Part shown: piece after piece, positions 7 through 17,304 of the stretch | Layout of the letters: each line of letters opens with the position of its first letter | Numbering within the stretch: the first letter of the stretch is position 1 | NCBI GenBank assembly: GCA_024741835.1 | Contig: JAENRP010000542.1 | Coordinates: 2,156-19,555, forward strand | Reading direction: 5' to 3' | Source of the DNA: Diplocarpon mali | Lineage: Eukaryota > Ascomycota > Leotiomycetes > Helotiales > Drepanopezizaceae | DNA length: 17,400 bases | The notes under the pieces: model-generated | Databases searched by the model: none | What the model was told of the DNA's origin: nothing | What the model saw: only the letters and a program-made list of their open reading frames with translations | Position numbers and translations under genes: made by a program

Positions 7-29
7 ACTCGCGGGTCGGGCCTGCGAGT
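7..29. repeat. 23-bp near-palindrome, unit 1
   Basis: GC-rich inverted repeat with ACTC at the left end and GAGT at the right end, two 11-bp arms around one central base. The arms are ACTCGCGGGTC and GGCCTGCGAGT, which pair with two mismatches. It is one of about 25 copies in the window. It lies in the leftmost part of element A, where I see no certain reading frame. Confidence 0.85.
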
Positions 30-130
30 GGATTTCAAAGAAATATATAGAGGGAGAGGGGGAAGGGGGGAGGTGCGGTAGTAAACGCATAAAATAACAA
101 AAACTCCTTTTTTTCTTCTTTAGTGATGCG

Positions 131-153
131 ACTCCCGGTCCAGGACCGCGAGT
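131..153. repeat. 23-bp near-palindrome, unit 2
   Basis: The best preserved hairpin of the family. Arms ACTCCCGGTCC and GGACCGCGAGT flank a central A and pair with a single mismatch. On the minus strand the frame starting at ACT reads T-R-G-P-G-P-G-V, the same frame used by most other copies. Confidence 0.9.
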
Positions 154-479
154 CAAAAGCTCAAAGTTGTTAAAGCTATTAAATCGCAATTTCAAGGAAA
201 ATTCGAAGACAATTTCAAGTAATCCCAAGCATATATGCCCCAACCAACTTAAGAGGCGTCCTTGCTAAAGAAAATTCAAGCTTCGCATAAAATTCGACTG
301 ACAATTTAGGAATTCCTTTGATACGGACGTTTATCGAGCCTTTCTGAGGTGGCAACTCGCTTATTCAACCTAAGGGAAGCTGGATTTGGGTATTTAGAGT
401 TCGCGTGCTGGTTTTTACCTTCTGGAGCCTATCGATTTCCAAACTGAAGGGCGTGATAAGTTTTCTAAAGAAGGCCTTC
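154..479 (-). other. Unassigned left part of element A
   Basis: This lies downstream of the recognisable gag on the minus strand. Broken frames can be read but no protease or zinc-knuckle motif is certain. To its left, a purine-rich G-run tract at 50-73 and a poly-pyrimidine run near 107-120 are simple-sequence features without an assigned role. No independent gene is seen. Confidence 0.4.
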
Positions 480-555
480 GATTGAGGTTTCTAAACGTTA
501 GATGCGGAGTTTAGAAAACTGGGCTTCGAGTTCCTTGATTTTTAAGGCAGATTTC

Positions 556-578
556 ACTCCTAGGCCGGGACTACGAGT
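556..578. repeat. 23-bp near-palindrome, unit 3
   Basis: Arms ACTCCTAGGCC and GGACTACGAGT. On the minus strand it is read within element A gag as T-R-S-P-G-L-G-V, the octapeptide frame seen in element B on the plus strand, so the unit sits here in the opposite orientation relative to the window but encodes a similar peptide. Confidence 0.85.
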
Positions 579-1561
579 AAAGGGAATTACTACTGGATTT
601 CTCTTTGCCTCCTCTGTAACTTCTAGAGCCTTTGAGTGTTCTTGAACCAAGCTCTTGAGGTCTTTAGTATAAGAGGGAGTAAGGGCTTTTTCCTATTCTA
701 TAGCATTAATAGTTCTTTCACTAAGATCTGATTTCAAAGCAAAGGCCGAGAACTCCTCAAATGAGGCGAAGGTTATAGGGTCTTATTCATCGATCCTGAA
801 ATTCTTAATGATCTTATTGCAGAGGCCAGTAGGTAATCCGAGCAAGAAAAGGCGGCCTCTTTCAACTTCGCTAAGTATTTTCTGGTCGATCAAGGTATTC
901 GACACTCGAGTGAAGGTCCGACAGTAGTTTTTAAGTTCCTTAAGAGTGCGAGTAATAAGAATAAACTCCTTTAAAAAGGCCAGAGTATCGCGAATCTGCT
1001 GTCTATCAAATTCCCGAAATTCAGCTTTAAGAGCCTTGACAAGTAGTTCCTAGGACTTGCGAAGCTTCCACTTAGGCAGAGATTTGATAATATCTTTGCT
1101 AGTTTAGTCGCAGTAGCAGGGAAGTCGATTGATCATTTTATTATATCTAATGCCAAAATCATAACAAGTCTCCTTATATTATTTAAGGAAATCAGTAATA
1201 TTAGCTCTAGTGAAATGAGGAGCGCCAGGGGAACTAGGGAGGGGAAAATGATTAGTGATGGCTTTGAAGGCGGCCATTATCGCTTTATTCGTTTCGATAG
1301 GAGGGGAGTCAGGTCGAATACAGGTCCTAAGGTGTTCCGAGGAGTTTTCAAAATCCGAGTCAATCTCAAAGTGACTAGGGCGAGCTTGAAAAGATTCGGG
1401 CAAAGGGTCGGAAGGAGGTTTAAAATTGATATTTTTAGTATTTTCAAGTGTCGACATTGAGAAAGCAGGTGCAGTTGTCGAAGGGGAAGGTGTCGAAGGA
1501 GAAGGTATAGAAGGGGAAGGTAAAGAACTCGAGTTATACAAAATTGCATTTTTAGATTCCC

Positions 1562-1584
1562 ACTCGCGGGCCCGGCCCAGGAGT
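1562..1584. repeat. 23-bp near-palindrome, unit 4
   Basis: Arms ACTCGCGGGCC and GGCCCAGGAGT. Here the gag frame crosses the unit one base out of the usual register and gives S-L-L-G-R-A-R-E-W. It is the one well-preserved copy in coding sequence that does not encode the T-x-x-P-G-L-x-V peptide. Confidence 0.85.
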
Positions 1585-2103
1585 GAAAATCCGGCTTCCG
1601 TAGAAAGTTTATTTATACTTTGCCAAGACTTCTTTAGTAGGTACGAAGCAATAAATAAAGGTACTGCAATCACTAGCAGTAAGAAAAGGTTTATCGAGTC
1701 AAAGACTAATTTCTAAGATAAAGTTTCTAAGAAAGATTCATCTTAGCTTCTAGGATAATTCCTATTAGTCCTTAGAATAAAGGGGTCTCTAGAGACGATT
1801 CCGGGGCAGTTTTCAGAGTTCTATCGAGTAGAGGCGGCTGAAGTATCCGATTTAGCTTTTTAAAGAAGCTAAGGAGACACTCCCGATTGGAGCTTTCGTT
1901 TAGTATTATATGAATACTCGAAACTGCTATTATTTAAAGTAGCTATTGTAGCTAATCAAACTTCTTTGTATCGGAAAGGCTGGGAATCCGACAATCGTAC
2001 TAATAAGCTGACAATTCAAGCTTTGTCGGATCAGAGGTAGGAGAGTCGGAATAGGGGCCGAAATGGGAAAATCTGAGGCTGTTGATAGTAGAGAATGGCA
2101 ATC

Positions 2104-2183
2104 GACAGTTCCAAATAACTGAGTGATTGCAAGGTCGATAATAGAGGAATGACAACTGACAGTTTTAAATAACTGAGTGATTG
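2104..2183 (-). repeat. 54-bp direct repeat in the element A leader or early gag
   Basis: Two 26-bp blocks, 2104-2129 and 2158-2183, match except for two C/T differences and are offset by 54 bp, exactly 18 codons. On the minus strand they encode ITQLF-x-TV-x-CHS twice within an open stretch at 1930-2241. That stretch is not in the frame of the main gag, so whether it is translated is unclear. Confidence 0.75.
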
Positions 2184-2284
2184 TTGTCTTAAGAGGGTTT
2201 TTCGAAGGGTTGATCTCTTGTCTGCGAACCAAGAGAATCAAGAGGAGAAGTCGTATAAAGACGAAATCTCAAAGGAATCGTCCC

Positions 2285-2547
2285 TGCGTAGGTCACTAAT
2301 ATAAGAGGAAGTAGGAACAATACCTGAGAATAGGCCTACGTAAAGACTAAAGACAAAGAGGGAGGAAGCACCATAAGCGGGCTCTCCGAAGATAGAACTA
2401 GGACAAATCACTCATTAGGGGTAGAATAGGTAGTTGGCATTGCGCGCTGTCTCTAAGTACAACAGTGGTCCTATATATACCCCTTTCTTGGTCCTCATCT
2501 GACCATATGACCTATGTCACGAGATCCTCCACTTCCAGGTCTCTACA
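2285..2547 (-). repeat. Probable 5' LTR of element A, limits approximate
   Basis: On the minus strand this block begins TGTAGAGACC at 2547, next to a clear change of base composition. It carries a TATA-like tract (TATATATAGG, plus-strand position about 2471-2480) as expected of a U3 promoter. It lies just upstream of the gag-like frame. The far end is uncertain: TGCGTAG at 2285 gives only a weak inverted match to the TGTAGAG terminus. No second LTR copy lies in the window, so the call rests on position, the TG terminus and the TATA tract. Confidence 0.45.
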
Positions 2548-3440
2548 TTATATATAGCGCTTAGATCTTACTAATCTAATTTTTAAAGAAAGTTGAAAAA
2601 CGACCTTTGAATATAAGATTAGCTCGTTTTTTCGACCCTTTACCTCTTCTATTTTACAAATGGAAATTCACCTTTAATTTTAATTTAAAAAAAATTTATT
2701 TACTATACCCTCGCTTCGCTAGCATAGGCTGCTGCTTAAAGCAGTATAATAACTTTTCTCTTCTTAACTCTCTTTTACTCTATACTACTCTTTTTCATCG
2801 ACCTTATACTTATTAACAACTCTCCTTATACTCTTCGATAACTCTCCTTATACTCTTCAAAGCTCTTTACTCTTTCCTTCGAAACCCTCGAATATAACTT
2901 GACTCCTTAAAGACCCCTCCTTGCGAATAAGTCGTCGAACTTCTCTATACTCCCTATCGACCTATACTTATCGACTTTGCCTTATACTCTTCAAAGCTCC
3001 TTACTCCTTCCTTCTTATACTTAGGTATAAACTAGGGGACCTATACCTATATATATATATAAAGACTTAATTAGCCTTAGTAGGTTATATTATACCATTT
3101 GAGACTAGGTCAACTTTAATAGAGTAATAAGCTTTAGACCCTACTTCCTTAGATTTGCACTATACCCCTCTTTATATAACCTTATTATAACTCCTAATTA
3201 GTAAAGAGACGTGATCTTAAAGTAAAACCTTCTCTCTTAAGATCTATAAACCTACGATACCTTAATATATACTCTACTAAAAGGCTTTAAGAATGTATAT
3301 AGCTCCGCTTATACTAATCTTCCCCCTTTTGAATAGGTCACTATTGAGCATTAGGTCCCTTTAGATTAAACTAGATAATATAAGGAGAGTTAATACTTAT
3401 AACCTCTAATCTTATACTACTTAAGAGAAGGGAAAGGTTA
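2548..3440 (+). other. Leader-like non-coding stretch upstream of B1 gag
   Basis: AT-rich and pyrimidine-rich DNA with many CTC/CTT runs and no recognisable protein. It contains a 35-bp direct repeat (2846-2880 and 2980-3014, two C/T differences), a shorter duplicated CTCTCCTTATACTCTTC motif near 2820-2860, a TATATATATATA tract near 3050 and a small hairpin at 2732-2744. It is best explained as the 5' leader of B1. A separate, unrecognised repeat cannot be excluded. Confidence 0.4.
2846..3014. repeat. 35-bp direct repeat pair
   Basis: Copies at 2846-2880 and 2980-3014, offset by 134 bp, differ only at two C/T positions. Both begin CCTTATACTCTTCAAAG. They lie in the pyrimidine-rich stretch upstream of B1 gag. 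Confidence 0.8.
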
Positions 3441-3470
3441 ACTGTACCTTTACTACTAAGCCTTACTACT

Positions 3471-3548
3471 ACCAGTTCTATAGGCCTTACTGCCACCAGT
3501 TCTACAGGCCTCACTGCTACTAGTTCCAGTTCTATAGGCCTTATTGCC
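3471..3548 (+). repeat. 24-bp tandem repeat in B1 gag
   Basis: Three units (3471-3494, 3495-3518, 3519-3548, the last with a 6-bp insert) share ACYAGTTC and TAYAGGCCTYAYTGC. They encode T-S-S-x-G-L-T/I-A in the gag frame. The lengths are multiples of three, so the frame is kept. Confidence 0.85.
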
Positions 3549-3608
3549 AACCCTAGTCTTAGAGATATTCCTCCTACTTAGGAAGTTACCTCCCCTAGTA
3601 CCGATTCT

Positions 3609-3631
3609 ACTCCTAGGCCCGGCCTATGAGT
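3609..3631. repeat. 23-bp near-palindrome, unit 5
   Basis: Arms ACTCCTAGGCC and GGCCTATGAGT around a central C. It is read in the B1 gag frame as T-P-R-P-G-L-stop-V, where the stop TGA sits at the position of CGA (Arg) in fresher units. The flanks extend the inverted repeat by a few bases (GATTCT and AGATTC). Confidence 0.9.
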
Positions 3632-5395
3632 AGATTCTCGAAATACCCTATTACCGTCGATTGAAGTTAAGGAAGAAGATATACTCTCCTTAATAACATC
3701 TACCTTTATTATATTAGCCCTTCTCTTTTTAGCTGCTTAATAGGCTGAAATCGCAAACCTTATTAGCGCTGCTATAGCTGCTGCTTTTTAAAATAATACT
3801 ACTGCCCCTTCTTTCTTAAGTGCTAGCCTTTAAAACACTCAGTCCCTTACCGCCGACTTACTGCCTCCCTTAGACTATTACCTCTTAATTATCTGACCTT
3901 TAGTCCTAGCTATCGACCTTTATTAAATTAAGTACCTTTAAACCCATTTTAGCAACTACTAGGACGAAATCACCTATAACGCTTAGAAGATAGCTATAAA
4001 GGTATTTATTTAAAAGTACTTAAGCAACTTCACTTTAAAAGAGAACTAGATCACTACCTACTTTAAGTGTATAATAGGTAAAGCTTAGAACCTGATCCTA
4101 TAATATATAGATCCTATCTTTACTAATAAGTTTATATGCGCTACTAATATCCTTAAGGTCTTAAATCAGAGGTTCTTTAACTATAACTATATTCAGTCTA
4201 TTAAGCTTAAATATAGTAGGCTAACTATAGGTTTATTATTATATAATAAGTTCTAATTTAAGTTTATTACCCTTGCTATAGCTAGTAAGATCGATTAGTC
4301 TTGCTAGTTTAATAATATTTATAAAAAGGTCTTCTTAGCTTTAAAAAACGACCTTTGAGTAGAGAAGTATAAAATGAATAATAATTATACTACTTTAGAT
4401 AAGTTCTTAGCTATTATAGACCGCGAGGCCTATAATATTAAGTAAGAAGAAGCTTATAACGCTTGATGCGTTGCCCTTGCTATTGCGCTCTCCCCTTTAA
4501 AGGACTGCGTCCTTAGCATATTGAAAAGGGAGTTATAAAGACCTATAGCTATAGCTACCTCTTTAGCTCCTTGCACTTATTCTCCTTTGCTAGCGGCCTA
4601 TTAAGAAGGGTCTGCTAGCCTAAAGCCGTCGTTTGATCTCTACTATAATTGCAAAGCCCTTAGTTATTATGCAACAGACTGCCTTAAGCTAAAGAAGTAG
4701 GGTAAGTTTATAATAGCTAAAGTTGAGATAGAAAACGACCTGCTATTAGGAAACTACTAAGCTATAGTAAAGACTCCTACTATAGTATAGGTTATAATTT
4801 ATAAAAAGACTTAGATTTTGATTCCTACTTATTAATAGGCGGTCGCTAGTTCTTAGTTCTTATAGAACTAGCTTAAAATGGATTATTTATTAAAACAGTT
4901 GCCTATATTAATAGTAGAGCTAATATTTTCGATATTATTAAGATATCTTTAGTATATTAGCTCTTTTAAAGACTTAGGGTAAAGTTTATTAAACTACTTA
5001 AACCGATTACCTTTATTAGCTATAATAGCCTTAAAGGAGAAACTATTCGATTTGCTATTTTACTTACCTTTATAATCGATAGGCGATAAATCAACTTCCC
5101 TTTCTTAATTATAAGCTTAAGAGCAATTGACATTTTAATTAGTAGGAAGTTCTTAAAGTATTATAACCTTAAATATTCTTATAGAAAAGGAAAAAACTAT
5201 ATCTCTTAGCTTAAGGATATGCCTATTATCTTTTACTTTAATTAATATATATTAATCGATCTCTTATAGCTAACTAAACCTTTAATAGCTTAATAAGATA
5301 TCAATTGTTAAGTAGCTATAATAGACGCTAAGAATAAAGACCTAAGAATAGCCTAAGCCTAGCTCTTAGTGCTAGTAAGTAATACTTCGAATTCC

Positions 5396-5463
5396 ACTCC
5401 TAGTCCTGGCCTGCGAGTGAAAACTGCAAATTCAAATTCCACTCTTAATCCTAGCCTGCGAGT
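5396..5463. repeat. Array of two 23-bp palindromes in the protease-RT linker of B1
   Basis: Units at 5396-5418 and 5441-5463, spaced exactly 45 bp (15 codons). They read T-P-S-P-G-L-R-V and T-L-N-P-S-L-R-V within repeated A-N-S-N-S-T context, and no stop interrupts this piece (open 5369-5608). Element B2 has three units at the same place, so the array has changed copy number. Confidence 0.9.
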
Positions 5464-7327
5464 GGCCTTTTGCAGACTTAAGGATAGCAGTTTCTTTAAA
5501 GACTTGAAAAGAGATTTGAACTATATAAAGAAGGCCTTGCTAAAAGTACTAGACCCCTTACTCCCTTTTTTAATAAAGAGAACTGCTCTTTTAAAAACGG
5601 CTTGCTAGATTAGCCTAATCTTAGCCTTAGCAATCGGCGCCCTTTACTACTGCTTTATAACTAAGGTAAGATAAGCTATATAAACTTAAGAACTAGCGCT
5701 TAAAGAGTTTATATTTATAAGCTCTATTTATAATTTAAACTAAGAGATCAATTGCTAAAAATTAGTTAAGCAAGCTGAAATTAGCTCCTTTAGTCTTAGT
5801 TCGGTATTATAAGCTAAGTATAAGAGTAATAATAAGCTAATAGATTAGAAGCTCTTACCTTAGTATACTAAATTTAAGAACGTTTTCAATTACTAGGCCT
5901 TTAATCAACTGCCGGAACTTAAGCTAAGGGTAGATTATAAGATCGAGCTAATAAGCGAGAACAACTTAATAATTAAACCCCTCTACCGCTTTACTAATAA
6001 ATAGCTCTTAAAGGTCAAGAGCTATATTTTCAAGAACTTATATAAAGGATTTATTAAAGCTTCGAGTTCCCTTTAGGTAGCCTTAATCCTCTTTATTAGA
6101 AAAGCTAATAGCTCCTTATATCTATATATCGATTATTAGAAACTAAACGCCCTAATAAAGAAGGACCCTTACCTGATCCTACTTATTAATAAGATAATAG
6201 CACGTATATCGAAAGCTTGTATTTTTATAAAAATCGATATATAATAAGCCTTCTACTATATCTGTATATTAGCTGACGCTAAGGACCTAACTACCTTTCG
6301 CACGCGTTATAGGACTTATAAATATAAGGTTTTGCTATTTGGATTGATAAATAGGCCTGCTACCTTTTAAAGGTTTATTAATAATATTCTTCTTAAGCAC
6401 CTTAATGATTTCTACTCTACCTATTTAAATAATATTCTAATCTACTTAGAAAACTCCTTTAACTATAAGATTTATATTAAGAAGATCTTAGGAATTCTCT
6501 AATACTATAGCTTATAAGTAGATATTAAGAAAAGCGAGTTTAAGGTTACTAAGACTAGGTTCTTAAGGTTTATTATTAGAGTTTATAGAATTAAGATAGA
6601 CTTTAATAAGGTCTTAGTCATTTAAGAGTAGAAATACGCTAAGAATATACACGGTATATAGAGCTTCCTAGGGTTTTATAACTTCTATTAAAGGTTTATT
6701 TAAGGCTATAGTTATATCTGCCGACCTTTAATAGCTTTTATAGGAAACGTTCCTTTTGACTTTAATAACGCTTGTAAGGAAGCTTAAGAAGCTCTGCGCT
6801 CAAGCCTTTAAACGACCCCGATTTTATACTACTATTACCCTTAAAAACAGATAAGGCTTAAGACTAACGCCTTTAATAGTATAGTCGCTAGCATACTCTC
6901 CTAACTTTAAGAAGACGATAATTACTACCTAATCAGGTACTTCTTAAAGACTATAAATAACGCTAAGCTAAATTACCTTATTTATAATAAGGAGCTCCTA
7001 GCGATTTTTAGATCGTTCTACTAGTATAAGGCAAAGCTACTTAAGGCTTAGAAAATAGTATATATATATATAGATTATAAAGCCCTTAAGTACTTTATAA
7101 TAACTAAGGACTTAATAGCCCGGCAGGTTTGCTAGGCGGAGTTCTTCGCTGATTTCAACTTCCTTATTATATATTAAATAGGCATAATAAATACGCTAGC
7201 TAATATACTCTTATATTAAGACTAAGAGCTGACCTCTCTTAAGGCTAGGAAACGAGCTTTATGCTATTAGCAGCTCTTACCTAACGATAAGCTCTTTATA
7301 GAAGTACTTGCTATTAAAGGCAATTCT

Positions 7328-7395
7328 ACTCTTAGGCCTGGCTTATAAGTAACTTTAGCGCAAATCAATTCTACTCCTGGGCCTAGCCTATGAGT
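7328..7395. repeat. Array of two 23-bp palindromes between RNase H and integrase of B1
   Basis: Units at 7328-7350 and 7373-7395, again 45 bp apart. In the pol frame they read T-L-R-P-G-L-stop-V and T-P-G-P-S-L-stop-V. The stops (TAA, TGA) fall at the codon that is CGA in fresher copies. Confidence 0.9.
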
Positions 7396-8893
7396 AACGA
7401 TTATGCCAATCACGCTAATAGAAGCACCTGCTAACCTAACGTCTAGGGTTAAGTACAATATGGCAAACTACTATATTATCGATAAAGTCATATAAGCTAA
7501 TAAGACCTCCCTTAAGCTATAGAAGTTCTAAGATAAGGCATAGAGCTATAGTCTTAACTATAAACTTAGCTAAGGCAAACTCTTCTTCTAAGGTAGACTT
7601 ATTATATTATCCTAACCTCTCGAACTGCAAACAGCTCTAATTTGTTATATATATAAGTAACCTTGCGTCGCATACGCTGGAATTAGGAAAATAAGGCTTC
7701 TAGTAGGAAGAAAATACTATTAGAAAAGCCTTAGTAGCGATATCGGCACTTATATCTAGAACTATTATTATTCGAAAATAAAAGCTTATTATAATAAGAC
7801 CCCTAGTTTCCTACAACCTTTGCCAATTCCCGAACAAGCTTATTAACACTTGATAATAGATTTTATAAAGCTTCTGCTTAACGAACTCAGTTATAATTTT
7901 ACCTTTATAATTATTGATAGGTTATTAAAGAAGGCAGTTTCGGTTCTATACTATAATTCGGTCGATATAAAAGGCCTTGCAGAGTTGTTTTTAGTTTACT
8001 AGATATGCTATTTTAGCATGCCTAACTCGATTTTATTAAATAGAGGCGCCTAATTCGTCTCTACCTTTTAGAAAGAGCTCTATCAGATATTAAGTATAAA
8101 GGTTAAGCTAACTATAGCCTATAACCCTAATATCGATAGCTAAACTAAGATTATAAACTAGTATTTAAAATAATGCCTTAGACTGTTCTACTTATATTAC
8201 TAAGATAATTAGAGTTGTCTCTTGCCTTTAATAGATATTGCCTAATTGACCTTACCTTACGAATCGCTAGGGCAAATTTCCCTTTTCTAAGTGCTAAACG
8301 GCTATAAAGCTTGCTCCTCTTAGAATTTAATTAACCTAAAGCCTCTATAAATAGCAACCGAAAGAGTAAATTGTAAAACAGCACTCCGTATAGCTACTAA
8401 AGCTCAAAAAGTAGTCCAATTTGCTTAATTATCTCTTTAAGCATAATAGGCTAAAATGAAATAGCTCGCAGACCTCTACTGCTAGCCAGTTGATTAGACT
8501 ATAAGAGATGATATACTAATTAGTATTAAAAACTAGAAGCTCGATCGGCCGAGCCGGAAGCTCTCCGATAAGTGGTACAGCCTAATAAAAGTACTAGAAA
8601 AGCTAAGAGAAAGCTAAAAGCTACAATTGCCCAATTCGCTCTATTCGATCTACCCTATTTTCTACTCGCACTTACTACGTAAATACGTTCCCAACCCTCT
8701 ATTAGGATAAGTTTAAGAACCTCCTACCGCAATTAAAGTACTACTAGAATAAGAGGAGTAGGAGATAGAAGAAATAATTGGATCTTATATTCAAGCTAGG
8801 AAGCTCGAATATTAGATTAAGTGGAAAGGAGCTGATAAAGACCTTAAATAGTACCTATACTCTAATGCTATAACGGCGCCGCATGCTATTCAA

Positions 8894-8898
8894 AAGTT
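8894..8898. repeat. Left target site duplication of copia C1 (AAGTT)
   Basis: The five bases directly before the C1 5' LTR are identical to 15043-15047 directly after the 3' LTR. The duplicated bases belong to the codons of B1 pol that follow AIQ near its C-terminus. Confidence 0.9.
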
Positions 8899-9093
8899 TG
8901 TTAAGATAGGTGATACAGCTATCACTCTGATATATTATCATATGACCTTACTGCTTAGTCAGTAGGATGTTGATATATATATAGCTATAGGGAAGAAAGG
9001 GGTAACCTTCCTTTCCTAACTCTTATTAATATATCGACTATCGACCTTTAAAAGCCTCTTTTACCTATTGTGCCGACTTACTTAAGCTTAATA
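8899..9093 (+). repeat. 5' LTR of copia C1
   Basis: 195 bp, beginning TGTTAAG and ending CTTAATA. Restoring the last CpA gives a matching TG...CA inverted terminus. It contains a TATATATATAGCTATAGGGAAG block (near 8970-8990) that is the likely promoter. The same block occurs in both other LTR copies in the window. Confidence 0.9.
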
Positions 9094-9106
9094 GGTTATA
9101 AGCCTT
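9094..9106 (+). promoter_or_regulatory. Probable primer binding site of C1
   Basis: GGTTATAAGCCTT directly follows the LTR. Apart from one TpG-to-TpA change it resembles the complement of the anticodon stem-loop of initiator tRNA-Met (which includes CTCATAACC), the half-tRNA primer known for Drosophila copia. C2 carries the same sequence beside its LTR (15954-15966). The tRNA assignment is from memory. Confidence 0.55.
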
Positions 9107-9500
9107 AGATAGACCGATAATAGATTATTAACTTCCTTTAGAAAGTACTTGCGCTATAACTATTAATAGGAAGTTGAACGAGACTTATAGTAAGAGGCGA
9201 GCAATCGGCGAATAGGAGGTATGATTCCCTATTTAGCTAACCTATATTATAAGAGGTATGATTTCTTATTCTATAACCCCTTTAGTACTATAAGAGGTAT
9301 AATTCCTTGCTTTACTATATTTTATAAGAGGTATAATTCCCTGCGTTATAGCTTAAAAATCCTTTTTAATAAGAGGACTTCCTCCTTATTTTATACTTCT
9401 ATAATACCTACTATTTAATCATTTTAACCTTTTAATAGAAGGAGTGCCTTTAACTATTTAATTTATTTGATTTTTTAATATAATTCTATTTGAAATAGTA
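9107..9500 (+). other. Leader of C1 with AGGTATRATTCC repeats
   Basis: Non-coding leader between the primer site and gag. Four copies of an AGGTATRATTCC-like core (9217-9228, 9254-9265, 9295-9306, 9329-9340) recur at 34-41 bp. The short open frame at 9221-9418 is a by-product of these repeats. C2 carries the same four-unit array, so it is a family feature. Confidence 0.75.
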
Positions 9501-11027
9501 ATAGCTTCCGATTCTGATCGAAACACTAGACCTAAAGACCTTTAACTCTCTCGAAAGAACTAGCAATAATAGTTCGACGATTTAAAGCTTTACTTTAAGA
9601 GTAAAGGCATTAAAATAGCAATTTAAAAGACACTTATTAAATATGCAAGAATAGCCCTTTATACTTCCTCTACCGATTCGTCTACTTCCACTTTAATAGC
9701 TAATATAACTGCTACGGATTTGCTAAATATATTAAATAAGCTTAGCTTAAGAGCTTTAGTAGATAATAATTAAGAATCCTAAAGGTAGATTTTAAATATA
9801 GAAAAGGAGAAGGAGTATAGGCTAGCCTTAATTAAATGCAAGCTTAAGATTAATAGAGGTTTAAGCGATAAAGATTAAGATTTTATTTAAGTTTATAATA
9901 ATATAAAGATAAGATAAGATACTTTAAAGGTAAAATACTTTTAAACAATTACCCTTAATACTTAGCATCTACTATAGTAGATTACTTTATTTTAATATAA
10001 AAAAGATAAAGATAGTAAGGATATAGATATAAATATAGACTTTGCTTAATTTATATTATATAAAGCAAAGAGGAAAGTAAGAGCCGCAGATCCTAGGATA
10101 GCTATGACTTTTAAGGAAACTCAGCTTTTTAGTTTCCTACTTAATAGCCTCCCTCTTAAGTTTGCTATTACGAAATAATCTCTTCTCATTTAACCTAACC
10201 TTAAGATTTATAAGAAGATCGACCTCCTTTGAACTATTAAGTAAGACTTTAAAGGACGCTTTGAATTGGCAAATACTGCATTATAAGGCAATAATAAGCT
10301 TAAGAAGAGGAAAGAGCGTAGGATAAGCCTTTAAGCTTATTAGAGATACTACTTCTATAATAGTACTTATAATATTACTAATTATAAAGTTAGAAGGCAA
10401 CTGATGGATATAGTTGCTAGCTTTAATATTAAGAAGTAATTGAAGCAAAAGTTAAGAAGCAAACTGCCCTTATCCTATTAAAGGCCGCAATTACTAAGGA
10501 AAGGCAAAGGAAAAGGAAAAGGCTATTTAGCTAAAACTTTAGCAGATACCTTTAATAATAATAGTAGGTTATCTAAACCTAAATCCACTTTTAATAATTT
10601 AAATAATAATTATAATAAAGATGCTTATATTTTAAAAGCCGATCTTTATAAGATCCTTGAATCCGATTAGTATAATAATACTAGTTGTATAGCATATATA
10701 ACTAATAAACTCTACCTATTTAAAGGCCTACTTATTAAAATAAAAAGGTGCTTTATTAAAGTTGATAGTAAAAGGTTGTATACAAACTCAATAGGTATAG
10801 TAAAGATGAATATTATTAGCGTTTCTTTCCTTTTATAAAATATTCTCCTTATGCCTAGCTTAAGTATTAATCTTTTATTTAGCTATAAGATCTATATAGA
10901 ATTGAATTATATAAGAGTTTTTAATAATTAATTTATATAATTTATAAATAATAATTATAAAGTGATTTTTAAAGCTAAAATTAAAGATAGACTTTATATT
11001 ATCTTAAAGGTGATATTATAGAAATTG

Positions 11028-11449
11028 ACTCTTAGGCCAGACCTATAAGTAGATTCCTTTAAGGAAAGTGCACTCTCTACCTTAATATAATTAAGTAAGG
11101 ATAAGGAGAATAGATAGACTCTTAAGCTAAGACTATAAGTGAAATTTGCGAAAATGACTCTTAAGCTAAGACTATAAATAGATTATAAAGTATCTTTAAA
11201 GATGACTCTTAAGCTAGGATTATAAGTGAATTTAATAGAAATAACTCTTAAGCTAAGACTGCAAATAGATTTTATAGATTCACTAATAATAACTCTTAGG
11301 CTAGGATTATAAGTGAAATTCGCAGAAATGACTCTTAGGCTAGGACTATAAGTGAAATTCGCGAATTTGTCAAAATCGACTCTTAAGCTAGGACTGCAAG
11401 TGGATCTTGCGATTTTATTAAAAATAACTCTTAAGCTAGGCTTGCAATT
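11028..11449. repeat. Array of nine decayed 23-bp palindromes inside copia C1 pol
   Basis: Units start at 11028, 11118, 11157, 11205, 11244, 11292, 11331, 11379 and 11427. Intervals are 90, 39, 48, 39, 48, 39, 48 and 48 bp, all multiples of three. Each begins ACTCTTA and ends AAGT, AAAT or AATT. In the pol frame they read T-L-x-L-x-L-x-V, with TAA where CAA (Gln) survives in the less mutated units (for example 11379). The array replaces no recognisable domain and lies between the protease and integrase regions. Confidence 0.9.
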
Positions 11450-12285
11450 GGAAAATGGTAAAACCTTAAACTACTATTACTAGTCTTTTCCAGCCGCTAA
11501 TAATAAAGTATTAACTAATAATAGGCTATTAAAGCTATTAGAAGCTAAAAGCCTATTAAAGTATTAGCTAATATATAAAAGATTCGCGCATTTAAGGCTA
11601 AAGAAATTAAAGGGCCTATATAAGGTCTTAACTTTAAAATAGAAGATCTAAGTACTAAAGGATCGCCTAATATACCGAATTTGCAAGCTAATAAAACTTT
11701 AAAATCAAACGCGAATTAAGCTTAGTTTATAGAAAGATTCGATATTAGCACTAATATTTATTAATACTGCCGGACTATTTACAACCTTAATTAGAGGAAA
11801 TAATTGGTTTTTTTAAATAGTAGATAACTTTACTTAATAGATATAGACCATTTGCACTAAGACTAAATCTAAGCTTATAAAAAAGCTAGAAACTTAGAAA
11901 GCGATAAAGGAACGCTAGACTTAATTAAAGCTAATAACTATTAAGTCTAATAATATATTAAAGATTAAGGTAAAGCTTAATAAATAGATAAAATAAAGAG
12001 TTTATTATAAATTAACTATAATATATAAAGGTTCTTATTAGAATAGTATCGCTAAGCGAAACATCTAATAAATAGAGACTGACTATCGCGCTCTACTATA
12101 AGATGCTAACCTACTATTAGAATTCTAAGACCTTGCAATTAAGGTAAATATATACCTGCGAAATAGAATAGGTAATAGACTAATAGTTAATAGCACTTAA
12201 ATATCGCTATATAAGGCATATTTCAAATAGAAACTAAGCCTAGACTATATCTGCGTCTTTAAAAGCGTCTACTACTCTTATATTA

Positions 12286-12308
12286 GCCTAAAGTCCTAGC
12301 CTACGGGT
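12286..12308. repeat. Possible degenerate 23-bp palindrome unit in copia C1
   Basis: The right part, AGTCCTAGCCTACGGGT, matches the family, but the left end no longer reads ACTC and the right end is GGGT. It lies in the integrase C-terminal part of the pol frame. This is a weak match. Confidence 0.35.
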
Positions 12309-14560
12309 ATAAAAAGTAAAAAGCTAATAGATTAAAGTAAAGAGTATATATTTATTAAATATATTAAATAGATAATAAAGTAATAGATAGTATATACGCT
12401 AGATCTAAGGCGAGTAATTATATCTTTAATAGTTAAGTTTAATAAATCTTAAAATAGAAAAGAGCTATCCTTAAAGCTTTATATACTTAGAGATTTATAA
12501 GGTATACCACTTAATAGTAATACTATTAAGCCGAACTAATAATCCCTTTCTCTTAGCTTAAGCATATTAAGCGCACCTGCTGATCGACGACCTATTAGTC
12601 GCCTAAAGGTTGAATAGACTATTCCTATCGTCTGCGAACTACTTAAAGTATAGAATAACTTTAATATTATTATCCCTTTAATTAAAGTACTTAAGGTAAA
12701 GGATATTCTTAAAATAGGTATAAGTAATAATAAGTCTCTACTATTAGAAAGCGGTTCCTTAAATGATAAGCCTATAGAACCTATAGCCGAACTTATATCT
12801 TTAAAAAGGAATAAAGACCTAGAACTAAAAGATACCTTAAACGAACGCAAGTCTAAGTATATCTAGGCTATAATAGCGCATAGGATCTATAAGCTTAAAC
12901 TTTAATAAAGCTTTAATAAAGATAATGCGTTCTTAGCCGCTAAAGGAATAATGAAAATCTCTTTTCTAAAGATATATAATAAAGCTATTAATAATTTAAA
13001 GAATAGAGTAATATAAAATAAGGCAATCTAAAAGGAGATAAGCTCTCTTACTATAAATGGCATATAAATAAAGGAACTAATGCTAAAGGACGTAAACCTA
13101 GTATTAATAAAGTGGGTCTTTATAATTAAGATATATATAAATAGAACCCTAAAGCATTATAAGGCAAGGCTTATAGCTAAGGGCTTCTCTTAATAGTAAA
13201 GAAAAGACTACTTTAATACGTTTACGCCGATAGTTCGCATAGATACCCTTTGTATATTTATAATAATAGTAGCCGCTAAGGACCTTAAATACAAATAGTA
13301 TAATATTAAAAATGCATTTACTAAAGCGATTATAAAGGAATAGATTTTTCTCTTTTAACCTAACGGTATTCTTATATACGCTAGCCACTCTCTTTATATA
13401 TTCCGCAGTATCTATAGACTTAAATAATCAGCCTATAATTAGAACCTCTTATATAGCTCTACTTTAATAGAAATGGGATTTATTTAAAGCCTAGCTAACC
13501 CTTATTTATTTACCTATACTAAGTATAGAATCAAGTTGCTATTATATATTAATAATATTACTATAGCTGCGAAAACAACTACTTAATTAGATTGGTTCTT
13601 TATAATAATTCGGAAACGTTTTAATACTAAGGATCTAAGGGGAATTTATAAGATCCTTAGCATTTGCGTTATAAGGAACTATTCCACTTAAGAACTCTAA
13701 TTAAATTAAGAGTAGTATATTAAGAAGATCCTAGACTAAATAGGACTCTTTACTTATACTCTTAACTTTAAGCTAAAGCATACTTTAATTAAAGGAAAGT
13801 ATAATAAGTTAGAGCCTACTAATGAAAATAAGTAAAGAGGAAATCTAAAGAAGTACTAATAGGATATTAAAGCGATTATATATACTATAATATATATAAG
13901 ACCAGATATCGCCTTTATTATTAAGTAACTTAATTAAAACCTAAAGGATCTGATAGTTTAATATAAGAATGCAGTTAAGCGATTTAAAAGGTACCTTCGA
14001 TTGATAATTATATAAAAGGTAAGATATAGACTAACGAAATATATAAGCGTAAAGCTTAAGGTATATACCAATTCCGACTAGGCAAATATAAAAGGTTGGA
14101 AAAGTATATTTAAAAGCGTAGTAGTACTATATAGTAGACCTATATTATAAGAAAGTAGGAAGTAGAAATCAATAGCTATTGCAAGCACTAAGGCCGAATA
14201 TATATTAATATTATTAAATTATAAATAAGGATTATAAATTGCTTAAGTTTTAAAAGATATAAGATTCGCTAAGTATATTAAATAAGATAGGAATTATATT
14301 AATCTTTAAGTAAATAATATAAGGGTAATTATACTTATAAAGAATCTATACTTATATAAGTGATCGAAATATATTAATATTACTTACTACTTTATCTATA
14401 ACCTTATTATAAAGAATAAATTATCGATTACCTATATTCTAATTGATCGAATAGTAGTAGATGGATTTATAAAGCTATTAGAGATAATTGCAAAGTTTGA
14501 AGCATTTAAAGATATACTAGGATTATAGAAGATAGTAGGAGCTTAGTAGGCTTAAGGACG

Positions 14561-14709
14561 ACTCCTAGGCCTACTTTATAAGTTAGGTTATATAGTCTTA
14601 TAAAGGAAAGTTTTTAAATTAACTCCTAGGCTTAGACTATAAGTTAAGTTATATAGTCTTATAAAGGAACGCTTTTAGGAAATTTGACTCCTAGTCCTAC
14701 TTTACGAGT
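14561..14709. repeat. Three 23-bp palindromes in the 3' untranslated region of C1
   Basis: Units at 14561-14583, 14622-14644 and 14687-14709. Spacing is 61 and 65 bp, not multiples of three, as expected outside the coding frame. Part of the spacer (TTATATAGTCTTATAAAGGAA) is repeated with the units. Confidence 0.88.
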
Positions 14710-14847
14710 AGGGTTAGTGATTTTAATAGAGGTTGCTATTAATTGATTATTTTTAATTTAAAGAGATACTTAAGAGTTGGATTAGCGTAAAAGGATAGTT
14801 ATTATTTTCTTAACTATAGGTTAATTAGAGTAAGGTCTAAGTAAGGG
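14710..14847 (+). other. C1 3' untranslated region up to the LTR
   Basis: A short AT-rich stretch with no gene. It ends in a GTAAGGG purine run just before the 3' LTR, the likely decayed polypurine tract for plus-strand priming. Confidence 0.45.
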
Positions 14848-15042
14848 TATTAAAATAGGTAATATAGCTATTACTTTAATATATTATCATATAACCTTAC
14901 TGCTTAATTAATAGGATATTAATATATATATAGCTATAGGGAAGAAAGGGGTAACCTTCCTTCTCTAACTCTTACCAATATATCGACTATCGACCTTTAG
15001 AAGCCTCCTTTACCTACTGCGCCGACTCACTTAAGCTTAATA
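14848..15042 (+). repeat. 3' LTR of copia C1
   Basis: 195 bp, same length as the 5' LTR, with termini now TATTAAA and CTTAATA. By eye it differs from the 5' LTR at about 22 positions, all transitions. In the left half this copy has A/T where the 5' LTR has G/C; in the right half the trend reverses. Confidence 0.9.
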
Positions 15043-15047
15043 AAGTT
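15043..15047. repeat. Right target site duplication of copia C1 (AAGTT)
   Basis: Identical to 8894-8898. Joining 8898 to 15048 restores one continuous B1 pol frame, which independently confirms the insertion point. Confidence 0.9.
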
Positions 15048-15186
15048 CTATTTAAAGAACGCTTAAGCTAAGGGGCTACCGAGGGCGCTATTAAGCTGGC
15101 TTAGGTCATATAACAATAGAGTTGACAATTATAGGGACCTAGAGGATAATACGCCTATGGATGCAACTGCGCGGGCGCAGTTTTTC

Positions 15187-15198
15187 AAAGGGGGGGGG
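15187..15198 (+). promoter_or_regulatory. Polypurine tract of element B1
   Basis: AAA followed by nine G residues (15190-15198), three bases before the 3' LTR. This is the expected plus-strand primer site in an LTR retrotransposon. It doubles as the last codons of pol. Confidence 0.75.
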
Positions 15199-15201
15199 TA
15201 G

Positions 15202-15445
15202 TATTACAGCCGCATTAGGTATACGGTCATATTATATGTCGAAGTCAGGTGCACGCTAAGGTAGCAAGGTGGCTAGATCACGTGCACGCTAGTGAAGCAC
15301 CTGTACTTATTCTGGAGGAGCTCTACTAGAGACTCTCTCTTCTTCTTTATCTTTTCTTTTCTATTATATAGCGTACCTCTTGAGGTAATACAGTCAGCGT
15401 TACTCGATTATCGCCCTACTGTACGCTCCAGAGCCAGTCGTAACA
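15202..15445 (+). repeat. 3' LTR of element B1
   Basis: 244 bp. It starts TATTAC (TGTTAC after one TpG-to-TpA change) and ends GTAACA, a 6-bp inverted terminus. It is GC-richer than its surroundings and little mutated. Inside are a direct repeat GTGCACGCTA (15249-15258, 15282-15291) and an inverted pair CAGGTGC/GCACCTG (15246-15252, 15297-15303). A short open frame at 15292-15480 spans it by chance. Confidence 0.82.
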
Positions 15446-15450
15446 ATTTC
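15446..15450. repeat. Predicted target duplication of B1 (ATTTC)
   Basis: The five bases after the B1 3' LTR are copia gag sequence and should be repeated next to the B1 5' LTR. That end is not in the window, so this is a prediction. Confidence 0.4.
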
Positions 15451-15561
15451 AATGCCTTTGCTCTTAAAGTAAAGCTCTAAATTATCGAACTATTATTGCC
15501 AGTTCTTTCAAGAGAGTTAGAGGTCTCTAGGTCTAGTATTTCGATCGGAATCGGAAGCTAT
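15446..15561 (-). pseudogene. gag: Gag N-terminal fragment of copia C2
   Basis: First 38 codons of the same gag as at 9501-9616 of C1. It reads I-A-S-D-S-D-R-N-T-R-P and then, past a cluster of stops, F-D-N-L-E-L-Y-F-K-S-K-G-I-E. The start codon is ATA, as in C1. A Trp lost to a stop in C1 is retained here (KNWQ), showing that the two copies mutated independently. It is truncated by B1. Confidence 0.85.
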
Positions 15562-15953
15562 TGCTATTTCGAATAGAATTGCGTTTAAAATTAAATAAAT
15601 TAAATAGTTAAGGGCACTCCTCCTATCGAAAAGTCGAAATGATTAAATAGCAGGTATTATAGAAGTATTAAATAGGGAGGAAGTCCTTTTGTCGAAAAGG
15701 ATTTTTAGGCTATAACGCAAGGAATTATACCTCTTACGAAAAATAATAAAGCAAGGAATCATACCTCTTATAGTACCAAAGGGTTATAGAGCAAGGAATC
15801 ATACCTCTTATAATACAGATTGGCTAAATAGGGAATTATACCTCTTATTCGCCAGTTGCTCGCCTCTTACTATAAGTCTCGTTCAACTTCCTACTAATAG
15901 TTATAGCGCAAGTGCTTTTTAAAGGAAGTTAATAATCTATTATCGGTCTAACT
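15562..15953 (-). other. Leader of copia C2 with GGAATYATACCT repeats
   Basis: Counterpart of the C1 leader. Cores GGAATYATACCT (plus strand) lie at 15721-15732, 15755-15766, 15795-15806 and 15832-15843. The four-unit number and the 34, 40 and 37 bp spacing mirror C1. Confidence 0.8.
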
Positions 15954-15966
15954 AAGGCTTATAACC
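15954..15966 (-). promoter_or_regulatory. Probable primer binding site of C2
   Basis: Reverse complement of GGTTATAAGCCTT, identical to the C1 site and adjacent to the LTR. Same half-tRNA-Met interpretation. Confidence 0.55.
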
Positions 15967-16161
15967 TATTGAGCTTAAGTGAGTCGGCATAGTAGGTAAA
16001 AGAGGCTTCTAAAGGTCGATGGTTAATATATTAGTAAGAGTTAGGGAAGGAAGGTTACCCCTTTCTTCCCTATAGCTATATACGTATCAACATCCTATTG
16101 ACTAAGCAATAGGGTCACATAATAATACATTAGAGTAATGGCTATATCACCTATCTCAATA
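15967..16161 (-). repeat. 5' LTR of copia C2
   Basis: 195 bp, begins TATTGAG and ends CTCAATA on the minus strand. Restoring the RIP-type changes gives a perfect 7-bp inverted terminus, TGTTGAG/CTCAACA. It keeps several G/C bases lost in C1, for example in the TATA region (GATACGTATATAGC). Confidence 0.9.
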
Positions 16162-16659
16162 TTCTTACCTATTAGTTCGATTTTATAATCTACCCTTAGC
16201 CTAGTTTCCAGCAGCTAATTAAAGGCCTAGCGATTGAAGACGTTTTTAAACTTAGCGTACTAAGGCGGGAGCTTCTAATCTATTAGCTTATTATTACTCT
16301 TATACTTAGCTTACAGCGCTAAACTAAGGCTAAGGGAGCTAATTTCAATTTGCTTAGCCGATTCTTAGCAATTGATCTTTTAATCTAAATTATAAATAGA
16401 GCTTATAAATATAAACTCTTTAAGCGCTAGTTCTTAAGTTTATATAGCTTATCTTACTTTAGTTATAAAGTAGTAGTAAAGGGCGCCGATTGCTAAGGCT
16501 AAGATCAGGCTAATTTAGCAAGCCGTCTTTAAAAGAGCGTTCCTTTTTATTAAAAGAGGAAGCAAAGGGTCTAGTACTTTTAGTAAGGCCTTCTTTATAT
16601 AGTTCAGATCTCTTTTCAAGTCTCTAAAGAAATTGCTATCCTTAGGTTTATAAAAGGCC

Positions 16660-16772
16660 ACTCGCGGGCTAGGCTTAGAAGTGGAATTCGAGTTCGCAGT
16701 TTCCACTCGCAGGCTAGGCCTAAGAGTAGAATTCGAGTTCGCAATTATCACTCGCGGGCTAGGCCTAGGAGT
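16660..16772. repeat. Array of three 23-bp palindromes in B2
   Basis: Units at 16660-16682, 16705-16727 and 16750-16772, each 45 bp apart. On the minus strand they read T-P-R-P-S-P-R-V, T-L-R-P-S-L-R-V and T-S-K-P-S-P-R-V with N-S before each. The flanks GGAATTCGAG repeat with the units, extending the palindrome. B1 has two units here. Confidence 0.9.
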
Positions 16773-17304
16773 GGAATTCGAGGCGTTATTGCTTGCTAGC
16801 ACTAAGAGCTAGGGTCAGGCCATTCTTAAGTCTTTATCCTCAGCGTCTATTATAGCTACTTGACAATCGATATCTTATTAGGCTATTAAGGGTTTTATTA
16901 ACTATAAGAGATCGATTAGTACGCGTTAATTAAAGTAGGAGATAATAGGCATATCCTTAAGCTAGGATATACTATTTTTCCCCTTTCTATAGGACTATTT
17001 AAGGTTATAGTACTTTAAGAACTTCTTATTAATTAAAACGTTAGTTGCTCTTAAGCTTATAATTAGGAAAGGGAAGTTTATTTGTCGCTTATCGATTATA
17101 AGGGTAAATAAGATAGCGAATCGAATAGTTTCTCCCTTAAGGCTATTATAGCTAATAAGGGTAATTAATTTAGGCAATTTAATAAACTTTACCCTAAGTC
17201 TTTAAAAGAGCTAATATGCTAAAGACGTCTTAATAATACCGAAAATATTAGCTCTATTATTAATATAGGTAACTATTGAGCTTAAGTTGTTGAATATAGA
17301 ATCA

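Follow-up and report, generated by a model that had tools for sequence, protein, structure and literature searches.

A 23-bp near-palindrome in four retrotransposon families of the fungus Diplocarpon mali: a candidate ultra-short insertion element of the nuclear genome

Rickettsia palindromic elements (RPEs) are, as outlined in PMC10969869, bacterial repeats of ~150 bp that reside in cellular genes. The GC clusters of yeast, as represented in PMC4478555 by GC42, are mitochondrial, mostly intergenic sequences of 42 nt with AG target nucleotides, and the ultra-short invasive elements of Podospora mitochondria (11 bp, >100 copies) are cited in PMC7218506. Here, a family of 23-bp near-palindromes, termed units, is described from a window of 17,400 nucleotides of the ascomycete Diplocarpon mali (assembly GCA_024741835.1; contig JAENRP010000542.1, numbered C542 in this work; positions 2,156 to 19,555 of the forward strand) and from the rest of the assembly. 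Units are present in four retrotransposon families of two superfamilies, the Ty3-like families B and D and the copia-like families C and E, and the genome carries thousands of them. We consider it somewhat probable that they are copies of one ultra-short near-palindromic insertion element of the nuclear genome, kept in open reading frames (ORFs) only when in frame.

The unit resembles both the RPEs and the yeast mitochondrial GC clusters, and belongs to neither. RPEs, named as the closest concept in a preliminary description of this DNA, make a good comparison, since in both cases palindromic repeats lie in frame in unrelated protein genes, each adding a related peptide; however, the fungal units have only 23-27 bp and their hosts are retrotransposons. 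Like the GC clusters, which are mobile by genome comparison and whose transposition mechanism is unsettled, the units are short GC-rich palindromes, but they lie inside retrotransposons, are often coding, and are flanked by 5-7 bp repeats at best. No common AG pair was found in 25 listed flank pairs, some of which have variable longer repeats. The Podospora elements are likewise tiny invasive repeats of a fungus, but those are mitochondrial, whereas the units occur on many contigs, in retrotransposon DNA, and their location is not mitochondrial. Miniature inverted-repeat transposable elements are also dispersed, bounded by inverted repeats and without a gene of their own; the units have no internal part, are flanked by direct repeats that vary in length and offset rather than by an evident constant target-site duplication (TSD), and gave no sign of a parent among the half-arms fetched. 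Searches of the open-licence literature yielded no description of such units from a fungal nucleus, and the string “palindrom” is absent from the main text of two published Diplocarpon genome papers. New here are the single codon phase, the spacing in multiples of three in coding arrays only, the peptide-bearing linkers of Diplocarpon coronariae, the flanking direct repeats, and the 3-10 units per C copy.

Because the retrotransposon frames of the window are full of TAA and TAG codons, as repeat-induced point mutation (RIP) would leave, the window was rescanned with the 23-mer consensus ACTCSYRGGCCNGGCCYRSGAGT, allowing C/T and G/A changes (RIP-type), at a cut-off score of at least 21 of 23. 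Twenty-six matches were obtained, 24 of which are exactly the sites of the preliminary description; the other two (5713 and 16388) lack the ACTC and AGT ends and were dropped. One hundred dinucleotide shuffles averaged 1.01 matches and never exceeded 3, confirming that the motif is commoner than in shuffled sequence. A genome scan for ACTC-N15-GAGT, as had been proposed there, covered the assembly of 49.37 Mb in 676 contigs and revealed 3306 places, compared with 476 for the reversed pattern. The strict form ACTCGCGGGCCNGGCCCGCGAGT, with up to 3 mismatches, was found 505 times (reversed control, 0), and the fetched long loci (178,469 bases) contain 116 units, compared with 3 in the reversed sequence. 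The shuffles and the reversed-pattern controls for window, long loci and genome rule out a chance origin of the units. The unit list for the fetched loci L001-L023 has 119 entries, in which the 24 window units are counted once more (L021, L022) and three L023 units recur under L001.

Base counts were made on 173 units, after removal of loci duplicating one another or the window and of units too close to an end or an N. At 70% identity these formed 51 flank clusters, some of which split one site or contain tandem neighbours, and the consensus of the clusters is RATTYN-ACTCCYRGKCCNGGMCYGCGAGT-NRAATY. The core is 23 bp, extending to ~27 bp with the strongly preferred neighbours YN...NR and to about 27-35 bp with the preferred flanks; position -2 is a pyrimidine in 49/51 clusters and position +2 a purine in 50/51. 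The GAATTCC and GGAATTC flanks, earlier taken to extend the inverted repeat, were recovered as the looser preference RATTYN...NRAATY, but the flanks of a given unit pair no better than swapped flanks, inverted matches not being enriched at 25 sites (p 0.51 and 0.70). After reduction to purines and pyrimidines, 18 of the 23 positions do not differ among 166 or more of the 173 units, the variable ones being 5, 9, 12, 15 and 19, and wobble bases are nearly fixed (T at position 3 in 51/51 clusters, A at position 21 in 48/51); the detection rule is biased towards the consensus and requires an exact match at one end, and the constancy is overstated to that extent.

The two 11-bp arms originally reported form a near-palindrome rather than a perfect one. 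Window units have 5-10 of 11 exact pairs (8-11 with RIP-type changes permitted), positions 5 and 19, expected partners, are mismatched in 39/51 clusters, and positions 9 and 15 are able to pair in only 32/51. The GAGT or AAGT end is found on most window units, but 11157 and 11244 end in AAAT and 11427 in AATT. The 5/19 mismatch indicates that the unit is a near-palindrome with a direction, and that it looks copied rather than selected as a perfect palindrome. Positions 9 and 15 carry identical transversion variants across several families, a purine or T at the former and a pyrimidine or A at the latter, which may point to multiple source variants or to exchange.

Sharing across different superfamilies was upheld, but the hosts, first described as three unrelated families (A, B and C), proved to be two Ty3-like families and one copia-like family, as element A aligns with the 5′ part of D at 66-80%; a fourth family, E, also carries units. 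B was classified as Ty3-like by its RVT_1 and RNase H matches (a Tf2-type SH3 match falls under its cut-off), and a second, minus-strand copy matches at 16161-17288 of the window. C is copia-like (RVT_2, E 4e-22), with the fetched protein P0121 covering 9501-12455, and P0122 and P0123 covering 13020-14525. The best named relatives of B pol and C gag-pol are proteins of D. coronariae, for which an assembly of 51.2 Mb with 34% repeats, and a genome with 20.7% copia and 5.7% Ty3 elements, is given in PMC11527701. D is Ty3-like, with RNase H in L005 and an integrase zinc-binding match in L006. A 15.7-kb D copy in L005-L006 is bounded by a 248-bp repeat at C1:394020 and C1:409497 (contig C1), its left end being uncertain because a third copy of the repeat lies at L005:3397-3633; L009-L010 and L017 match most of its length, and it carries 11 single units, 0.2-4.7 kb apart. 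This copy (L005:4020 to L006:9744; C1:394020-409744) runs ~9 kb beyond the integrase zinc-binding match, where no Pfam match was found in six frames and the units are 0.4-1.6 kb apart. E is a further copia-like family, with a reverse transcriptase match at L014:1090-2631 and six units within 3.5 kb; the two units in L013 probably belong to the same E element.

All 285 units in the fetched loci were assigned by flanking blastn to these families (C 147, B 60, D 54, E 24); many of the loci had been fetched as B or C members, and some others were picked by unit or half-arm pattern only. Sharing between families ends at the unit and a few bases. Units are absent from L007 (10 kb, copia matches) and from the copia element partly covered by L018:7801-10000, in the stretch sampled, both of which lack a match to C or E; they are also absent from L002-L004, L011 and L020. 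On contig C2 (522,631 bp), five ACTC-N15-GAGT places were listed, none of them unit-like; the genic DNA sampled is small. A unit at C1:292109, in L019, was considered as a case outside transposable elements and rejected, the surrounding repeat (40 matches listed of 248 candidates) being related to D, with direct repeats seen by eye at L019 ~1308 and 3217. The stretch L019:1308-3440 is a 2.1-kb repeat-bounded element related to the 5′ part of D, with one clear unit, and may be a non-autonomous derivative. The strict unit had 0 exact matches in viral contigs, and the strict unit followed by ACTC within 5-25 bases had 0 in a bacterial and archaeal collection; both collections may leave out records near the window's genome.

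Codon phase was taken from tblastn frames, with a protein match required within 150 bp of the unit. Of 103 unit occurrences, with many sites counted in several copies, 98 have phase 0 and 5 have phase 2. The five phase-2 units all lie 3′ of the copia match to reverse transcriptase and RNase H (RT/RH), a region in which three further units have phase 0. Where a protein match spans the site, phase 0 was found in 5/5: B gag, the B linkers between protease and reverse transcriptase (PR/RT) and between RNase H and integrase (RH/IN), the first C unit, and the C array. As in RPEs, the units at all five lie in frame in unrelated ORFs and give a conserved peptide. The unit reads T-P-x-P-x-x-R-V in this phase, and TPGPGPRV where it is little decayed. 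The frames of the two B pol linkers were set by relatives without units, and for B gag the phase agrees with that given by P0090, 197-318 bp away. Spacings in coding arrays are all multiples of three (B 45; C 39, 48 and 90, in 17/17 copies; E 45, 48 and 54; D 162), whereas the C 3′ units outside the ORF match are spaced by 61 and 64-66 bp. Three units of L061, in DNA without a protein match, are 107 and 124 bp apart, not multiples of three.

Homologous proteins were compared as database translations, not as DNA; 151 were fetched (the best 120 of 1203 from one search and all from two others), and a unit-peptide pattern matched 7 of them. Each of the five fetched D. coronariae proteins (P0001, P0002, P0012, P0087, P0121) has at least two copies of the peptide, and the remaining 146 proteins gave two single matches, one inside the reverse transcriptase of P0134 and one in P0006. 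In the C alignment, a D. coronariae protein carries 8 units between its protease and integrase (PR/IN) parts, while in P0132-P0135 the flanking C sequence continues without units (64-68% identity, in local alignments of ~1/3 of the query); P0140 and others contain unrelated extra sequence in this linker. The B linkers of Drepanopeziza brunnea P0034 and of most other homologues contain other sequence and no unit, an absence less clean than in C because B linkers vary so much. The peptide is present at the pol linkers of D. coronariae, and nearly all aligned homologues are without it there; common descent of the hosts therefore fails to explain the units, as had been argued.

Direct repeats flanking the units were examined at 25 hand-picked sites, with flanks swapped between sites as controls; the B PR/RT entry uses the L018 copy, in which array spacer forms the right flank. 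With 8-bp windows, the mean longest match is 3.36, compared with 2.73 in the shuffles (p=0.001), and repeats of at least 5 bp occur at 6/25 sites, where 1.2 are expected, a number reached in 0/1000 shuffles. The signal persists at 10 and 12 bp windows (p 0.002 and 0.005), and examples include GATTCT in B gag, TGATTTT in E and AAAAAC in D. A fixed-offset test on the 51 clusters detected no clear duplication (best z 3.2 of 245 tried); a free-offset test on the same, non-independent clusters agrees in direction with the 25-site test. The TSD-like repeats at the 25 sites favour insertion.

The number of units at a site varies. At B PR/RT most of the 25 aligned copies have two units, the window's minus-strand copy has three, and L018 has two and a truncated third; C has 3-10 units in the 17 copies counted, and tandem number shifts in 39-, 45- or 48-bp steps. 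In L018 (C4:225001-235000), on the minus strand, pol of the B copy shifts frame between the PR/RT units and the reverse transcriptase; this copy is perhaps interrupted by another insertion. As in minisatellites, tandem repeats of variable number are found, but the units are not confined to tandem arrays, those of the D copy in L005-L006 being single. Among D/A copies, the single window unit at 131-153 corresponds to a pair in L061:59-188, spaced by 107 bp, a difference that looks like loss or gain of the DNA between two units. Modular exchange at the D 4937 site was considered and not accepted, the flank identities being suggestive, not clear.

A parent element was sought through the exact half-arm ACTCSCGGGCC, which occurs at 447 places (control, 19); in 364 cases RAGT follows at the proper spacing, making these full units. 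Twenty of the 83 leftover half-arms were fetched, and comprised 10 units with changed ends and 10 chance-like occurrences in DNA of 43-66% G+C. As no pool of lone arms was seen among these 20, there is no sign of a larger element with these ends; a parent DNA transposon using the arms as terminal inverted repeats is not supported by this sample, diverged parents being possible.

The chief rival explanation is spread via short exchange between retrotransposons, in which a coding minisatellite of one retroelement would have been carried to others by short gene-conversion or template-switch tracts between co-packaged RNAs, with no insertion element. Such exchange would fit the tandem arrays of variable number, the L061 difference, the placement of every assigned unit in the four families, and the site common to all 25 aligned B copies. 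However, the likeness between families extends only a few bases outside the unit (in 51 flank clusters, some of which split one site), many units are single, in both orientations and outside ORFs, and enriched short direct repeats are unexpected from exchange at a homologous tract; we regard this explanation as rather unlikely. It is improbable that TPGPGPRV is a selected linker, or a polyprotein processing or spacing motif, with the likeness in DNA due to codon choice. The single phase at the five spanned sites, their position at PR/RT, RH/IN and PR/IN boundaries, and the similar peptide in P0006 would suit a protein function, but wobble bases hardly vary, units are also found in reverse orientation and downstream of the C ORF, and the sampled stretches of two other copia families have no units. 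The two orientations, the occurrence outside ORFs and the wobble bases point to copying at the level of DNA, not to protein convergence.

Still less probable is an array of binding sites, in which the near-palindrome YNACTC...GAGTNR would be bound by a dimeric host or element protein of insulator or silencing type, and would be kept and multiplied for regulation. The gypsy insulator has a comparable layout, and symmetric conservation that includes positions -2 and +2 outside the core, as well as the tandem arrays, speaks for such sites; against them, the location in pol linkers and the keeping of frame suggest tolerance rather than regulation, and the 5/19 mismatch is conserved in 39/51 clusters. 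Least probable of all are RNA hairpins serving dimerisation, packaging or translational pausing of retrotransposon RNA. One GC-rich unit folds at -12.7 kcal/mol (z -2.27) and the interdomain location would suit such hairpins, but the other five folded sequences are no better than shuffles (z -0.78 to +1.06) and positions 9 and 15 can often not pair. With 1 of 6 folded sequences standing out, the hairpin was rejected as a conserved feature.

Several observations weigh against the insertion element that we favour. The analysis covers one genome, and no parent has been seen. No empty site was found within a family: units are present in 25/25 aligned copies at B PR/RT, so that the earlier proposal that units move or are copied between elements is supported by the TSD-like repeats but not for the present day. 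Twenty of these B copies came from 40 listed matches to a unit-bearing query, with 5 others added, and an empty site could have escaped because this choice favoured filled sites. The TSD-like signal is weak, variable in length and offset, and lost at 15 and 20 bp windows (p 0.14 and 0.11). The frames of B gag and C were set by D. coronariae proteins that themselves contain units (P0012, P0121), and the first C unit and the C array may not be independent sites. Phase 0 at D 7862, D 8024, the E triple and A 556 was reached by extrapolation only, the D/A unit at 1562, perhaps in a leader, is out of phase, and the spacing between the D/A units at 7 and 131 is 124 bp, not a multiple of three. The single TPEPSPQV of P0006, which lies in a proline-rich RH/IN linker of a homologue outside the named Diplocarpon proteins and is known from the protein alone, suggests that a unit outside Diplocarpon is possible. 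This match and the biased choice of B copies lowered our confidence in the insertion element slightly.

Insertion, target duplication and a frame filter follow from the evidence with moderate confidence. Each site would go back to one insertion event, in which DNA of non-coding origin entered an AT-rich target and probably duplicated ~5-7 bp of it. In gag and pol, frame-preserving insertions at tolerant interdomain linkers (PR/RT, RH/IN, PR/IN) would have survived, adding a loop of the T-P-G-P-G-P-R-V type. Retrotransposition of the host element would then have multiplied each unit site, and slippage or unequal exchange may have grown and shrunk the arrays. The first suspect as helper is the retrotransposons' own reverse transcription and integration machinery, because all units examined sit in these families, though we hold this with low confidence. 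It is conceivable, if doubtful, that the unit is a hyperparasite of LTR retrotransposons, moved by their reverse transcriptase and integrase in virus-like particles. Such movement would account for the unit's occurrence in retrotransposons but not in the genic DNA sampled, and in one frame the unit would survive as a harmless flexible loop.

The features of the window are collected in the table below. At the contig end (17314-17347), the window also has an imperfect tandem repeat of period 14.

Table. Units and host ORFs of the window; the strand of each unit is that of its host element.
Feature	Position	Strand	Basis or remark
Unit, family D/A	7..29	-	consensus scan; no protein match here
Unit, family D/A	131..153	-	124 bp from unit 7, not a multiple of 3; no protein match
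Unit, family D/A, probably gag region, TRSPGLGV	556..578	-	phase 0 only by extrapolation from ORF 1179-1673
Unit, family D/A, possibly 5′ leader upstream of gag	1562..1584	-	not phase 0 in ORF 1179-1673
Host ORF, B gag (Ty3-like)	3420..4733	+	tblastn with P0012/P0034/P0090; broken by RIP-type stops
Unit, B gag, T-P-R-P-G-L-x-V	3609..3631	+	phase 0; flanked by direct repeat GATTCT
Host ORF, B pol (PR-RT-RH-IN)	4739..8920	+	homology; broken by RIP-type stops
Unit 1, B PR/RT linker	5396..5418	+	phase 0
Unit 2, B PR/RT linker	5441..5463	+	phase 0; 45 bp after unit 1
Unit 1, B RH/IN linker	7328..7350	+	phase 0
Unit 2, B RH/IN linker	7373..7395	+	phase 0; 45 bp after unit 1
Host ORF, C (Ty1/copia-like) gag-PR-IN-RT-RH	9501..14525	+	homology; broken by RIP-type stops
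C unit 1, PR-IN linker	11028..11050	+	phase 0; linker sequence that continues in relatives lies between unit and array
C array unit	11118..11140	+	phase 0
C array unit	11157..11179	+	phase 0; 3′ end AAAT
C array unit	11205..11227	+	phase 0
C array unit	11244..11266	+	phase 0; 3′ end AAAT
C array unit	11292..11314	+	phase 0
C array unit	11331..11353	+	phase 0
C array unit	11379..11401	+	phase 0
C array unit, last	11427..11449	+	phase 0; 3′ end AATT
C 3′ unit past RT/RH match	14561..14583	+	phase 2 if RT/RH frame is extended
C 3′ unit	14622..14644	+	61 bp after 14561, not a multiple of 3
C 3′ unit	14687..14709	+	65 bp after 14622, not a multiple of 3
Unit, second B copy, PR/RT linker	16660..16682	-	phase 0
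Unit, second B copy, PR/RT linker	16705..16727	-	phase 0; 45-bp step
Unit, second B copy	16750..16772	-	45-bp step; three units here, two in most of 25 aligned B copies

Ultra-short mobile palindromes have been described from organelles and bacteria, and how they move there is not yet settled. With thousands of copies in families of two retrotransposon superfamilies and long-ORF relatives in D. coronariae, a nuclear set would let the multiplication of a 23-bp sequence be studied. In a eukaryote, it would also be a case of selfish DNA giving rise to new protein loops, a role proposed in Rickettsia, here with mobile elements in the place of the host genes.

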